From the NCBI RefSeq assembly GCF_029643425.1, contig NZ_CP119106.1, positions 2,046,001 through 2,110,000 on the forward strand: a stretch of DNA of 64,000 bases, in the 5' to 3' direction. The DNA is from Isoptericola sp. AK164. Lineage in GTDB: Bacteria; Actinomycetota; Actinomycetes; Actinomycetales; Cellulomonadaceae. Positions within the stretch are counted from its first letter, which is position 1, and every line of letters begins with the position of its first letter. Made by a program: the position numbers and the translations under genes. Positions 2,371 through 8,709 of this stretch are shown here, piece by piece. Under the pieces are notes generated by a model, which worked only from the letters and a program-made list of their open reading frames with translations, made no database searches and was not told the origin of the DNA.

Positions 2371-2450
2371 CCAGGTAGGCAATCTCCAGCCGAGGTAGGC
2401 ATCCTCCAGCCGAGGTAGGCAAGTTCCGGCCGAGGTAGGCAACCCCGGCC
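2371..2450 (+). repeat. Left array of 20-bp repeat (forward orientation)
   Basis: Four adjacent units with an exact 20-bp period, beginning at 2371, 2391, 2411 and 2431. The core is cgAGGTAGGCA(A) followed by a variable C-rich half. Weaker units seem to continue at 2471 and 2491 in the same phase (cgaggcggac, cgaggcagtg). The unit is the reverse complement of the right array. Confidence 0.85.
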
Positions 2451-2680: not shown

Positions 2681-2820
2681 GGTGGCCTACTTCGGAGGGA
2701 TGTTGCCTACTTCGGCCGGAGGTTGCCTACCTCGGCCGGAGGTTTGCCTACCTGGTGGGGACCTTGCCTACCTCGGCCCAGAGTTGCCTACCTCGCCGGG
2801 AGGTTGCCTACCTCGCGGGA
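2681..2820 (-). repeat. Right array of 20-bp repeat (inverted orientation)
   Basis: Seven units starting at 2681, 2701, 2721, 2742, 2762, 2782 and 2802, period 20 with one 21-bp step. The core is TTGCCTACCTCGGCCGGAG with substitutions, i.e. the inverted form of the left array. It ends eight bases before the ctaF terminator hairpin. Confidence 0.85.
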
Positions 2821-3279: not shown

Positions 3280-5111
3280 TTGGAGTCCTCCTCGCCCTCG
3301 GCCGGGCGGTCAGCGTCGAGGACGGTCGTGCTCGACTGGTGCTTCTCGGGGTAGTCCTTCCAGCTGAGCTCCTCGACCATCTCGTGCTGGCCGGTGCGGT
3401 CCGCTCCGCCGTAGACGCGCTCCAGGGCGCCCTCGTTCAGGTGAGGGTCCTCCATCGCGGCGACCTCCGGGTGGTGGAGGTCGAACGCCGGCGACTCCGA
3501 GCGGATCCGCGGCAGCGAGGTGAAGTTGTGCCGCGGCGGCGGGCAGGACGTCGCCCACTCGAGCGAGCGGCCGTAGCCCCACGGGTCGTCGACCTGCACC
3601 TTGGGGGCGTTCCGCCACGTGGTGTACACGTTCCACAGGAACGGCAGCGTCGAGGCGGCGAGGATGAACGCACCGACCGTCGAGAGCTGGTTCTCCCAGG
3701 TGAAGCCCTCCTCGGGCAGGTAGTCCGCGTACCGGCGGGCCATGCCCTCGACGCCCAGCCAGTGCTGGACGAGGAACGTCATGTGGAAGCCGACGAACAG
3801 GATCCAGAAGTGGATCTTGCCGAGGCGCTCGTTGAGCATGCGCCCGGTGAACTTCGGCCACCAGAAGTAGAAGCCGGCGAACATCGCGAACACCACGGTG
3901 CCGAAGACGACGTAGTGGAAGTGCGCCACGACGAAGTACGAGTCGGACAGGTGGAAGTCGAGCGCCGGGCTGGACAGGATGATGCCGGTCAGACCACCGA
4001 AGAGGAAGGTCACCAGGAAGCCGATCGACCAGAGCATCGGTGTCTCGAAGGTGATCTTCCCTCGCCACAGCGTGCCGATCCAGTTGAAGAACTTCACGCC
4101 GGTCGGGATCGCGATGAGCATCGTCATGAAGGCGAAGAACGGCAGCAGCACCGCACCGGTGACGTACATGTGGTGGGCCCACACCGTCACCGACAGGGCG
4201 GCGATCGCGATCGTCGCGTAGACCAGGCCCTTGTAGCCGAAGATCGGCTTCCGGCTGAAGACCGGGAAGATCTCGGACACGATGCCGAAGAACGGCAGCG
4301 CGATGATGTACACCTCGGGGTGGCCGAAGAACCAGAACAGGTGCTGCCACAGCACCGCTCCCCCGTTGTCCGGGTTGAACACCTGGGCGTCGAACCGGCG
4401 GTCCGCACCGAGGGCGAACAGCGCCGCGGCCAGCGGCGGGAACGCCATGAGGACCAGCAGGCTGGTGACCAGGGTGTTCCAGGTGAAGATCGGCATCCGG
4501 AACATCGTCATGCCGGGCGCACGCATGCAGATGATCGTGGTGATGAAGTTGACGGCACCGAGGATGGTGCCGAAACCACCCAGGGCGAGGCCGAAGACCC
4601 ACAGGTCTCCCCCGAGGCCTGGACTGAACGTCGTGTTCGACAGCGGCGCATAGGCGAACCAGCCGAAGGAGGCCGCGCCCTGCGGGGTGAAGAAGCCGCC
4701 GGCGGCGATGAGCCCGCCGAACAGGAACAGCCAGTACGCGAACATGTTCAGACGCGGGAACGCGACGTCCGGCGCACCGATCTGCAGCGGCATGATGACG
4801 TTGGCGAAGCCCGCGAACAGCGGCGTCGCGAACAGCAGCAGCATGATCGTGCCGTGCATCGTGAAGAGCTGGTTGTACTGCTCCTTGCTCTGCACGAGCT
4901 GGATGCCCGGCTCGAAGAGCTCGGCGCGGATGAGCAGCGCGAGGATGCCTCCCACGGCGAACCAGAGGAACGACGTGATGAGGTACATGTACCCGATCGT
5001 CTTGTGGTCGGTGGAGGTGATCCACTTGACCACGGTGCGACCCAGCGTCTGGCGCCTCGGCTGCAGGCCGGGGACGACCTCGGCGCCGTAGGCGGTCTCG
5101 GTGGTGGCCAT
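3276..5111 (-). CDS. ctaD: Cytochrome c oxidase subunit I
   Basis: Catalytic haem-copper subunit that reduces oxygen to water and pumps protons. 611 residues, twelve helices. The CuB ligands and the His-Tyr cross-link motif are present in [12 protein letters not shown], the second CuB His pair in [10 protein letters not shown], and the haem a/a3 histidines in [11 protein letters not shown] hydrophilic tail of about 90 residues follows the last helix. The start ATG shares its A with the ctaC TGA stop (TGATG), so it is coupled to ctaC, and its end overlaps ctaF. Confidence 0.98.
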
Positions 5112-6034
5112 CAGCCCTCGACCTCCGGGATCGTCTCGTCAGTGGAGAACTCGGAGTGCTGCTGGCGGTTCAGGTCCAGACCGAGCTCGCCGGTCTGACC
5201 CTGAGCGCGCAGCTCCTCCATCTGTGCGTCGTACTCGGCGCGGTCGACGACCTCGACGTTGAAGAGCATGCCGGAGTGGAACTCGCCGCAGAGCTCGGCG
5301 CACTTGCCGGCGTAGGTGCCTTCACGCTCGGGGACGACCTGGAACGTGTTCGTCTTGCCCGGGATCATGTCCATCTTGAACAGGAACGCCGGGATCCAGA
5401 AGGAGTGGATGACGTCACGGGAGTCGACGGTGAACTCGACGCGCTCACCGACGGGCAGGTACAGCGTCGGCAGGTCCTCGGAGGTCCCGGGAGCGTCGTT
5501 GACCGTCTCCTCCTCCGTCACGGAACCCGGCTCCAGCAGGTGCTGGCCGGTCTCGTAGACGTCGTCGTCGAGGTAGTTGAAGTCCCAGCTCCACTGCTTG
5601 CCGATGACCTGGATGTTGACGTCGGGCTCCTCGGAGGTGTCGAGGATCGCCGTCATGTCGCGGTTCGTGTAGAAGAACAGCACGAGGATCATGAGCGTCG
5701 GCACGATCGTGTACATGATCTCGAGCGGCATGTGGTACCGCGTCTGGACCGGCAGTCGCTCGTCGCCGCGGCGCTTGCGGTAGGCGGCGACGCACCAGAG
5801 CATGAGGCCCCAGGTGATGACGCCGACGGCGAGCGCGGCGACCCACGAGCCGTTCCACAGGTTGGTGATCCGCTCGGTCTGGTTCGTCACCTCCCCGTCG
5901 GTGTATCCCGGGAGGTATCCGCGCTGGACGGCGTCGCTGGCGCAGCCGGTGGCGAACGCTGCGACCGCGACGGCGAGCGCCGTCGCACGCAGCGCCATCG
6001 ACCGCCGGGTGCGGGTGGTGCTCTTCGAGTGCAA
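5111..6034 (-). CDS. ctaC: Cytochrome c oxidase subunit II (lipoprotein)
   Basis: Electron-entry subunit of the aa3 oxidase. The CuA motif [13 protein letters not shown] is complete, and the tryptophan region [10 protein letters not shown] is present. Two membrane helices lie near residues 50-70 and 92-112. I choose the TTG at 6034 (307 residues) because it gives a proper lipoprotein signal: basic n-region (K, R, R-R), hydrophobic stretch, lipobox FATGC. It also has AAAGG six bases upstream. Starting at the internal ATG (5998) would remove most of the positive charge. First gene of the operon; TAGGCT (minus strand, 6119-6114) is a possible -10. Confidence 0.93.
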
Positions 6035-6307
6035 GGGAGGCCTTTCACGTCTCGTCCGACCGCCGCGTCCTGAGGCAGGGCGCACGGGTGGGACCTTCGT
6101 CCTCGATGGGAGCAGCCTAGCGCGACCTTCACGGTTTCGACGCCAGAAGACCCCCCTTCCTACGTGACGGGACAGGGTCCCGACGTCGCCATCCGCCCTG
6201 TTCGCGACGCCCGGCTGGGCCGTGTCAGATCGCACCGGGGTTTCGCGACACCGAGGACGTCGGCGGCATGATGGTGACGACGCTGCGACGCCCATCGAGA
6301 GGCCCCT

Positions 6308-7465
6308 GTGACACATCCCACCTCGCCGACGCCGACCCGGACCCCTCTGGACAACGGCGGCTCGGCGCCCCTGCACCCCCTGGCCCGGCAGGCGCTGGTC
6401 CAGGCCCTCGACGAGGGCTGGGCGGACCCCCGGCGCCTGCACGCCGAGGGGCGGCGCGCGGCCGCACTGCTCGACGGCGCGCGCGAGGCCGTGGCCGGCG
6501 TGCTGGGCGTGCGCACCGAGGAGGTCCGGTTCACGCCGTCGCACACGGCCTCGCTGCACTCCGCGGTGGCGCAGGTGGTCCGGGCCCGACGGCGGCACGG
6601 ACGCGGCGTCGTCGTCGGTGCGGCCGAGCGCGCGGCGATCCTGCACGCGGCCGACCACGCCGCGGGCCCCGGCGGACGCACCACGACCGGCGTCGACCGG
6701 CAGGGGCGCGTGGACGCCGACGAGCTCTCCCGGACCGCCCGCGCCGACGGCGTCGCCCTGGCGGCGCTGCAGCACGCCAACGGCGAGGTCGGCACGCTCC
6801 AGCCCGTCGCGGCGGTGCACGCCGCGCTGGGGGGCTCGGGCGTGCCCCTGCTCGTGGACGCGGGCGCGTCGGTCGGGCACACGGAGCTGCCGACGGCGTG
6901 GGACCTGCTGGCGGCGGACCCGGCGGACTGGGGCGGGCCGCGGGGCGTGGGTGTCCTGGCGGTGCGGCACCGCACCCGGACGGTCCCCGACGGGCCCGAG
7001 GACCCGGATCCCTGGGCCCCCGGCGGCGTCAGCGTGCCCGCGGCGTTCGCCGCCGCCGTCTCCCTGCAGGCGGTCGCCCAGGACGTCGCCGCCGAGGACG
7101 CACGCCGCCGCGCCCTGGTCGACCGGATCCGGGCCGCCGTCGCACAGATCCCGGACGTCGAGGTGGTGGGCGACCCGGTCGACCGGCTCCCCCACGTCGT
7201 GACGTTCTCTTTCCTCTACGTCGACGGCGAGGCGATGGTGACCGAGCTGGACCGCGCGGGGTACGCCGTCGGCTCCGGGTCCGCCTGCACGGCCGGCACC
7301 CTGGAGCCCTCGCACGTCCTGGCGGCGATGGGCGTCCTCACGCACGGCAACGTGCGTGTCGCCCTGGACCGGTCGACCACGGCCGAGGACGTCGACCGGT
7401 TCCTCGCCGTGCTGCCGGGCGCGGTCGCGCACGTGCGCGACGCGCTGGGGGTGTCCGGGCTGTGA
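6308..7465 (+). CDS. NifS/IscS-like fold protein lacking the PLP lysine (possible pseudo-cysteine desulfurase)
   Basis: A class-V aminotransferase fold with the shape of a class I cysteine desulfurase (385 residues; GTG start). It keeps the mobile loop with the persulfide cysteine (GSGSACTAG, Cys327, then EPSHVL), the HANGEVGT segment (156-163) and Asp184 for the pyridine nitrogen. The Schiff-base lysine (normally S-G-H-K before GPKG) is replaced: the region reads PADWGGPRGVG, with Asp207 at the Lys position. The PLP-stacking His is Arg108. The whole protein contains no lysine. It therefore cannot hold PLP as an internal aldimine; it may be a persulfide carrier or have another role. It overlaps a TusA-like gene by GTGA, which suggests a sulfur relay. 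Confidence 0.85.
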   Translation: MTHPTSPTPTRTPLDNGGSAPLHPLARQALVQALDEGWADPRRLHAEGRRAAALLDGAREAVAGVLGVRTEEVRFTPSHTASLHSAVAQVVRARRRHGRGVVVGAAERAAILHAADHAAGPGGRTTTGVDRQGRVDADELSRTARADGVALAALQHANGEVGTLQPVAAVHAALGGSGVPLLVDAGASVGHTELPTAWDLLAADPADWGGPRGVGVLAVRHRTRTVPDGPEDPDPWAPGGVSVPAAFAAAVSLQAVAQDVAAEDARRRALVDRIRAAVAQIPDVEVVGDPVDRLPHVVTFSFLYVDGEAMVTELDRAGYAVGSGSACTAGTLEPSHVLAAMGVLTHGNVRVALDRSTTAEDVDRFLAVLPGAVAHVRDALGVSGL

Positions 7466-7719
7466 GCACCGTGCCGGAGGTCGTCGACGCGCGCGGGCTG
7501 CGCTGCCCGCTGCCCGTGGTGCGGCTGGCCGCCCGCGCGAAGGAGCTGGCCGCCGGCAGCGAGGTCACGGTGCTCGCCACCGACCCGGCCGCGCGGTACG
7601 ACGTGCCGGCCTGGGCCCGGCTGCGGGGCCACGTGATGGTGGCCGAGGAGCACCACCCCGTGAACGACGAAGCGGACGGCGGGCCCTGGTGGGCCCTGAC
7701 CGTCCGCCTCGAGGACTAG
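7462..7719 (+). CDS. TusA/SirA-like sulfur carrier
   Basis: 85 residues with the diagnostic DARGLRCPLPVVRL segment; Cys15 in the CPxP motif is the persulfide carrier residue of TusA proteins. GTG start at 7462 inside the preceding stop (GTGA overlap), so it is co-translated with the lysine-free NifS-like protein. TusA normally receives sulfur from IscS and passes it to tRNA thiolation or molybdopterin pathways; which acceptor is used here is unknown. Which enzyme loads it is also open, since its partner appears unable to bind PLP. Confidence 0.87.
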   Translation: MSTVPEVVDARGLRCPLPVVRLAARAKELAAGSEVTVLATDPAARYDVPAWARLRGHVMVAEEHHPVNDEADGGPWWALTVRLED

Positions 7720-8178: not shown

Positions 8179-8709
8179 TCACTCGTCGTCGGCGGCCCAC
8201 GCGGGCGCCCAGGTCCGCGCGACGCGGGCGACGGCGTCCTCGGCGGGCACGGGACCGACCTCGTGCGCCCCGGCGACCCCTGCTCCGGCGAGCTCGCGGC
8301 GCGTGGCCTCGCTGCGTCCGGCCAGCACGACGACGGGCACGGCGTGGGGGGCGGCGGCCTGCGCAGCGGAGTGCACCGGTCCGGCGTGCAGCGCGGCGCC
8401 GTCCAGGACGGGGGTGTGCACGACGACGAGGTCGGCCTCCGCGACGCGCTCGTGCAGCAGCCGCACCTCCGGCCGCGGGGCGGGCGGCACGACGCTGGAC
8501 AGCCCGAGCTCGGTCGTGGGGACGAACACCCCGGGCGACGGCGACCCGTCGGGCGGGCCGGTCGACGCCGCGGGGCCGGGCGGCAGCACCATGGGTTCGA
8601 CGACGCAGCGGGGAGCGGCGGCGGTCCAGGCGGCGGCCAGCGCCGTCGCGGCGGTGCGGTCGGGGTCGTCCGGTCCACCGTCGGCGGTGGCCAGCAGCAG
8701 TACGTGCAC
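8179..8709 (-). CDS. Hypothetical protein, glycerate-kinase-like remnant
   Basis: 176 residues, GTG start at 8709. The C-terminal third (HAVPVVVLAGRSEATRRELAGAGVAGAHEV) resembles the end of actinobacterial type-1 glycerate kinases, and the N-terminus (MHVLLLATADG) resembles their opening strand. Most of the intervening catalytic region is absent or unrecognisable, so it is at best a shortened or degenerate relative. The frame is intact and the codon use matches its neighbours, so it is probably expressed. It is divergent from nadA with about 44 bp between the starts. Family assignment is from memory of related proteins and is uncertain. Confidence 0.5.
   Translation of the reverse strand: MHVLLLATADGGPDDPDRTAATALAAAWTAAAPRCVVEPMVLPPGPAASTGPPDGSPSPGVFVPTTELGLSSVVPPAPRPEVRLLHERVAEADLVVVHTPVLDGAALHAGPVHSAAQAAAPHAVPVVVLAGRSEATRRELAGAGVAGAHEVGPVPAEDAVARVARTWAPAWAADDE

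Follow-up and report, generated by a model that had tools for sequence, protein, structure and literature searches.

A ctaC-linked desulfurase-TusA module of actinobacteria whose desulfurase has very probably turned pseudoenzyme repeatedly

The locus and its genomic setting

The window analysed here, a stretch of 64,000 nucleotides within a single 3.58 Mb contig of Isoptericola sp. AK164, carries a gene for a NifS/IscS-like protein that is read divergently from ctaC and overlaps a gene for a TusA-like sulfur carrier. The relevant features, in window coordinates, are these:

5111 to 5998, minus strand: ctaC, cytochrome c oxidase subunit II, the divergent neighbour, start codon estimated (PF00116)
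6222 to 6232, plus strand: GTGTCAGATCG motif, about 80 bases upstream of the NifS-like gene and kept in near relatives (motif search)
6308 to 7465, plus strand: NifS/IscS-fold protein of 385 residues without the PLP lysine (Pfam, structure alignments, AlphaFold2)
6629 to 6631, plus strand: codon for Arg108, at the position of the PLP-stacking His (family alignment)
6926 to 6928, plus strand: codon (GAC) for Asp207, at the position of the Schiff-base lysine (alignment to solved structures, family alignments)
7286 to 7288, plus strand: codon for Cys327, the mobile-loop cysteine, invariant in the family (alignment)
7355 to 7357, plus strand: codon for Arg350, invariant (family alignment)
7462 to 7719, plus strand: TusA-like sulfur carrier of 85 residues (PF01206), with Cys15, Asp41 and Asp47 kept

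The NifS-like reading frame opens with GTG at 6308 and closes with TGA at 7463-7465, and its product contains 35 arginines and no lysine. Cysteine desulfurases require a Schiff-base lysine for PLP; the classic IscS and NifS proteins have it where this protein reads PADWGGPRG, with Asp207 at the site, and the mobile-loop cysteine lies in VGSGSACTAG. The reading frame and the alignments thus confirm what an earlier note on this DNA had described, namely a 385-residue protein that keeps the Cys327 loop, has Asp at the lysine site and Arg at 108, and is devoid of lysine. The partner gene, which that note had also recognized as TusA-like and overlapping by GTGA, does start with the GTG at 7462, and its product matches PF01206 with an E value of 3.6e-17. 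No second TusA was found in the genome. The protein has the TusA domain of the family, with the CPxP cysteine and the conserved Asp residues, and it resembles the E. coli TusA-type carriers in its catalytic Cys and two conserved Asp. Against NF001423, the curated equivalog for the TusA of tRNA thiolation, it scores 45.3 bits, below the cut-off of 78. Of the residues with which E. coli IscS contacts TusA, Asp52 and Arg55 are kept in the NifS-like protein while Trp45 and Glu49 are not (here Arg49 and Ala53). No TusBCD or TusE neighbours were seen in the conserved locus.

The divergent arrangement with ctaC is found at 70/70 loci of lysine-less family members and at 102 of the 105 lysine-bearing loci with enough sequence, and erpA and nadA often lie close by; in relatives of the window, the ErpA gene lies directly downstream of TusA. 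Between erpA and nadA these relatives also keep a minus-strand gene (8179-8709 in the window) for a 176-residue protein whose resemblance to glycerate kinase is confined to the C-terminal part of that enzyme (PF02595 positions 276-350, just below the cut-off). On the oxidase side, ctaF lies directly beyond ctaC at six loci of Micromonosporaceae and Glycomycetaceae (L073, L095, L132 and L137-L139), where no ctaD was found between the two genes, unlike at the other named loci. Linkage to ctaC does not translate into a requirement for the oxidase: in an order-wide draw of 149 genomes, COX2 was found in 118 and a family member in 36, all 36 with COX2, and the 82 genomes with COX2 and no family member indicate that an oxidase can generally do without the pair.

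Elsewhere in its own genome, the window protein is accompanied by other class V enzymes that have the lysine, including an IscS beside MnmA and a SufS (GHK/AHK), and by 11 rhodanese-domain matches; its identity to the genome's IscS is only 34-37%. Upstream of the gene, GTGTCAGATCG at 6222-6232 occurs in exact form nowhere else in the genome and is a possible promoter or operator. The shorter pattern [GC]TGTCAGA occurs within 500 bases upstream of 12/70 lysine-less loci, all near relatives and some with two copies, and at none in the coding control; a simple scan for promoters and terminators found nothing. A separate repeat family is represented between sodA and ctaF by tandem 20-bp units (GGTTGCCTACCTCGGCGGGA-like) in opposed arrays at 2385-2444 (minus strand) and 2681-2801 (plus strand). 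With up to a single mismatch allowed, the repeat core, TTGCCTACCTCGGCNGG, has 118 copies in the genome, against 0 for the reversed control. The copies frequently form a minus array with a plus array after it, one such case lying next to iscS-mnmA (G000:C1:2440509-2440747), and they belong to a genome-wide, mostly tandem family.

A group I desulfurase fold without the PLP lysine

The NifS-like protein matches PF00266 (Aminotran_5) with an E value of 1.3e-35, and its AlphaFold2 model (pLDDT 90.9, pTM 0.90) is less confident in the Cys327 loop than in the core, as expected of a mobile loop. In VIA-align comparisons, the model superposes on four IscS/NFS1 structures, those of human NFS1, M. tuberculosis IscS, E. 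coli IscS (also from its TusA complex, 3lvj) and A. fulgidus IscS, with Z of about 45-46 over 354-371 residues at 2.0-2.5 A. With the group I desulfurases, such as E. coli IscS, human NFS1 and M. tuberculosis IscS, the protein shares the fold type I class V aminotransferase fold, the mobile-loop cysteine (GSAC) and the dimer class, and E. coli IscS feeds TusA. It differs from them in having Asp207 and no lysine at all where the Schiff-base lysine belongs, Arg108 for the stacking His, and Asp204 and Ala206 among the phosphate-side Ser/His/Thr residues, of which Thr80 is present. Its scores against the NCBIfam equivalogs fall short for both NifS (211.4 bits against 530.75) and IscS (134.8 against 643.2), cut-offs that the lysine-bearing orthologues miss too. 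Those orthologues, exemplified by Nocardioides, Microbispora and the fused proteins of Streptomyces, occupy the same divergent place with TusA adjacent or fused, but they keep SAHKWGGP, His108, Ser204 and Thr80. An AlphaFold model of a fused Streptomyces orthologue has a disordered linker (pLDDT <50 at 384-408), and therefore says nothing of docking.

Among solved structures, the best sequence matches are to A. fulgidus IscS (4eb5, E 2.7e-49; 4r5f), followed by IscS, NFS1 and NifS chains. Lysine-less IscS pseudoenzymes are known in archaea, namely A. fulgidus IscS and Methanosarcina acetivorans IscS1, and A. fulgidus IscS, in which Asp takes the place of Lys, does not act as a desulfurase and provides a ligand to the IscU cluster (PMC7585200); its structures are PDB 4eb5, 4eb7 and 4hvk, with 4r5f being the D199K variant. 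The window protein agrees with this archaeal type in its fold, the replaced lysine and the retained loop cysteine, and the two proteins share Asp at the site itself (ND-IYGPKG in A. fulgidus IscS, AD-WGGPRG here). However, A. fulgidus IscS has IscU rather than TusA as its partner, keeps the stacking His, and has Leu at the position of Arg350, so the bacterial proteins cannot simply be equated with it; the window locus has ctaC, TusA and ErpA genes as neighbours and no IscU scaffold alongside. A common origin is also not supported, since on the tree A. fulgidus IscS falls outside the ctaC-linked family, among the classic IscS rows (SH-aLRT 100), and its Asp is thus convergent.

Repeated lysine loss and selective erosion of the pocket

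Searches of the order, the class, the phylum and named genome contigs yielded an orthologue set of 179 distinct proteins, of which 109 keep the PLP lysine and 70 have lost it, most often to Asp (42) or Ser (14) and otherwise to Ala (6), Thr (3), Gly (3), Glu (1) or Met (1). The lysine-less proteins belong to Promicromonosporaceae, Cellulomonadaceae, Demequinaceae, Intrasporangiaceae and further families of the order, with scattered members elsewhere, and SAHKWGGP or a near equivalent is kept in Streptomyces, Nocardioides, Streptosporangiaceae, Thermomonosporaceae, Kribbella, Glycomyces and others. Close relatives of the window protein (75-77% identical) all have Asp207 in the sample, and distant relatives share it, which rules out a sequencing error or a lone mutation. 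The total lack of lysine, which the earlier note had put forward as a feature, is correctly counted and yet mostly incidental: beyond the site itself, lysine-bearing members contain a median of just 2 lysines, and 16/107 contain none, so that zero lysine largely reflects loss of the site residue from a family that was lysine-poor to begin with and is no signal in itself.

On a quick tree of 108 rows with some long branches, parsimony requires at least six changes between lysine and non-lysine within the family and 20 changes among the letters at the site, and forcing all lysine-less rows into one group costs the best such tree 122 log units (AU p 0.009). Within the limits of this quick tree, both results reject a single loss. 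Lysine is lost throughout the Micrococcales clade of the window and in at least five further branches, and loss would be the natural direction of change because the outgroup desulfurases have Lys. Losses in Nocardioides are sporadic: of the 30 sequences nearest the lysine-less one (L126, with its remaining pocket intact), 28 have Lys; the two exceptions are a Thr, from the same genome again, and a Gln. A module that is lysine-less as such, as first proposed, therefore stands for the clade of the window and not for the family, in which 109/179 orthologues keep the residue.

Other residues around PLP have changed along with the lysine. Ser204 is present in 109/109 lysine-bearing proteins versus 7/70 lysine-less ones, His108 in 107/107 versus 23/70 (with Arg in 42 of the latter), Thr80 in 105/107 versus 31/70, and Gln187 in 79/109 versus 2/70; His206, found in 96/109 lysine-bearing proteins, is not among the five commonest letters in the lysine-less set. 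The pocket of the window protein (Arg108, Asp204, Ala206) follows this trend, its Thr80 being a residue that is not general in lysine-less members. In contrast, Arg350 (109/109 and 69/69), Asn158 (105/109 and 70/70), Gln155 (106/109 and 70/70) and Asp184 (109/109 and 69/70) are kept in lysine-bearing and lysine-less proteins, respectively, as is Cys327 (109/109 and 69/69). Going by NifS and SufS structures, we take Asn158 and Arg350 to be the pair that binds the substrate carboxylate, Arg350 matching the substrate-carboxylate Arg position of group I desulfurases, and Asp184 to be the Asp that contacts the PLP ring nitrogen in this fold type. The invariance of Cys327, Arg350 and Asn158 while the PLP residues vary indicates selective rather than general decay, and the lysine-less genes are under purifying selection, with dN/dS of 0.09-0.38 between gene pairs by a simple NG86 estimate in which dS is partly saturated.

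The TusA partner is less strictly kept than the cysteine. By profile search for a downstream or fused TusA, it accompanies 50/69 lysine-less and 102/108 lysine-bearing loci, and is thus missing beside 19/69 and 6/108, respectively. Fusion occurs in Streptomyces and, among lysine-less members, in three genomes (L018, L204, L205). All 50 TusAs at lysine-less loci have the catalytic Cys, and each of the two conserved Asp is likewise present in 50/50. Independent pairs on the tree give no support for a linked loss of lysine and TusA, in a test that was under-powered. Four Demequina-like members (L022, L024, L028, L030), lysine-less and with no adjacent TusA, have a new lysine two residues past the loop cysteine (SGSACGKA). 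Of the pattern that the earlier note had proposed to look for among homologues, the retention of Cys327 held throughout; constant loss of the lysine (70/179) and strict conservation of TusA did not.

A probable pseudoenzyme and a possible sulfur relay

With its PLP lysine and most of its PLP pocket gone, the window protein should form no internal aldimine with PLP, and we strongly infer that it takes no sulfur from cysteine. It is very probably a pseudoenzyme, as had been suggested from the sequence alone; loss in a whole clade and at least five branches, the eroded pocket, and the preservation under purifying selection of Cys327, the ctaC-side position and, for the most part, the TusA partner all support this. 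More broadly, these comparisons describe what is very probably a ctaC-linked actinobacterial desulfurase-TusA module whose desulfurase has repeatedly turned pseudoenzyme, the lysine-bearing orthologues presumably being ordinary desulfurases that feed TusA, often as one fused protein. Repeated loss of the lysine, with the cysteine and the oxidase-side place always kept and TusA usually so, suggests a sulfur-handling role without the enzyme's own chemistry.

The reading that we favour, if tentatively, is that the locus is a clade-specific form of the ctaC-divergent sulfur module, working as a PLP-independent persulfide relay to TusA. Ancestrally, the module would have joined TusA, as a coupled or a fused partner, to a cysteine desulfurase of the IscS/NifS type. 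In the window lineage the PLP lysine has gone from the desulfurase, as has most of its PLP pocket; the fold, Cys327 with its mobile loop, Asn158, Asp184 and Arg350 on the substrate side, and the TusA partner are kept. Cys327 may then take sulfane sulfur made elsewhere, be it by IscS or SufS, by a rhodanese, or as a small persulfide in the old substrate pocket, and may hand it to TusA Cys15, much as E. coli IscS passes its persulfide, within the dimer, from Cys328 to TusA Cys19 (PMC2854127). That Cys327 still carries sulfane sulfur to Cys15 is a weaker proposition than the loss of PLP chemistry and is argued from this analogy. The ctaC linkage suggests a sulfur client tied to the respiratory chain. 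Since 19/69 lysine-less genes keep the cysteine with no TusA beside them, delivery to TusA would not be the whole reason for its retention, and in some clades it may have another use, as a cluster ligand or toward another acceptor. That Trp45 and Glu49 among the TusA contacts of E. coli IscS have no equivalent here also counts against the relay, although Asp52 and Arg55 do.

The best placed of the alternatives, which we nonetheless regard as unlikely, holds that the protein is a non-catalytic adaptor that carries no sulfur, its task being to stabilise or gate TusA or to form heterodimers with an active IscS or SufS. Group I desulfurases are dimers, and TusA touches both subunits of the IscS dimer (PMC2854127); here, TusA is co-transcribed or fused and the predicted fold is intact. 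However, a pure adaptor would need neither the invariant Cys327 loop nor Arg350, and the low identity to the genome's own IscS leaves heterodimers uncertain. Close behind, and likewise improbable, is a role with no sulfur chemistry in which Cys327 is lent as a ligand for Fe-S assembly on a partner, perhaps ErpA or SufU. The A. fulgidus precedent, with the same Lys-to-Asp change in the best PDB sequence match, argues for this role, as do the ErpA gene just past TusA and the persistence of the cysteine where TusA is gone; against it, the archaeal protein groups with classic IscS and lacks Arg350, no IscU is adjacent, and the conserved partner, TusA, is a sulfur carrier rather than a scaffold.

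We give rather less credence to a fully specified version of the relay, in which PLP-free forms have arisen many times, the Asn158/Asp184/Arg350 pocket binds a small persulfide, cysteine persulfide for instance, Cys327 acquires the sulfane sulfur of that persulfide through thiol exchange, and TusA carries it to a client connected to the cytochrome aa3 oxidase. Slightly more doubtful still is that the gene is a relic, a desulfurase no longer needed that erodes beside ctaC, with TusA to be lost next. Multiple losses, among them isolated, recent ones in an otherwise intact pocket (L126 K->T and L250 K->Q in Nocardioides; L187 K->M), and the more frequent absence of TusA beside lysine-less genes would fit such decay, but the low dN/dS and the frames that stay open throughout a clade both old and diverse, the invariant residues amid changing PLP contacts, and the failure of the two losses to coincide in the under-powered tree pairs speak against it. 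Finally, retention of PLP in active form, held non-covalently or by another residue, would be consistent with the kept Asp184, Asn158 and Arg350 (roles from general knowledge) and is nevertheless very improbable, given that the phosphate-side and stacking residues are lost too, that the window protein has no lysine whatsoever, and that desulfurase activity is absent from A. fulgidus IscS, which shares the Asp (PMC7585200).

In the open-licence literature searched, no description was found of a ctaC-linked desulfurase-TusA pair, the searches also covering SCO2157 and desulfurase pseudoenzymes. Within those searches, the earlier note's suggestion of an undescribed module beside the oxidase genes fits the bacterial, recurrent, TusA-coupled and ctaC-linked form; lysine-less IscS as such was already known from archaea. 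If the relay reading is correct, a widespread actinobacterial locus would manage without the catalytic lysine that defines the family but not without the sulfur-carrying cysteine, and sulfur transfer would have been separated from sulfur mobilisation within one fold. The family offers a natural series for testing that separation, from members with the lysine, through those in which it is just lost and the pocket intact, to those with the lysine lost and the pocket eroded. Many of the automatic "cysteine desulfurase" annotations in Cellulomonas, Promicromonospora, Demequina, Phycicoccus and their relatives would then be unlikely to denote desulfurases, and the cytochrome oxidase locus would appear to be connected, in a way not yet described, with a TusA-type carrier.
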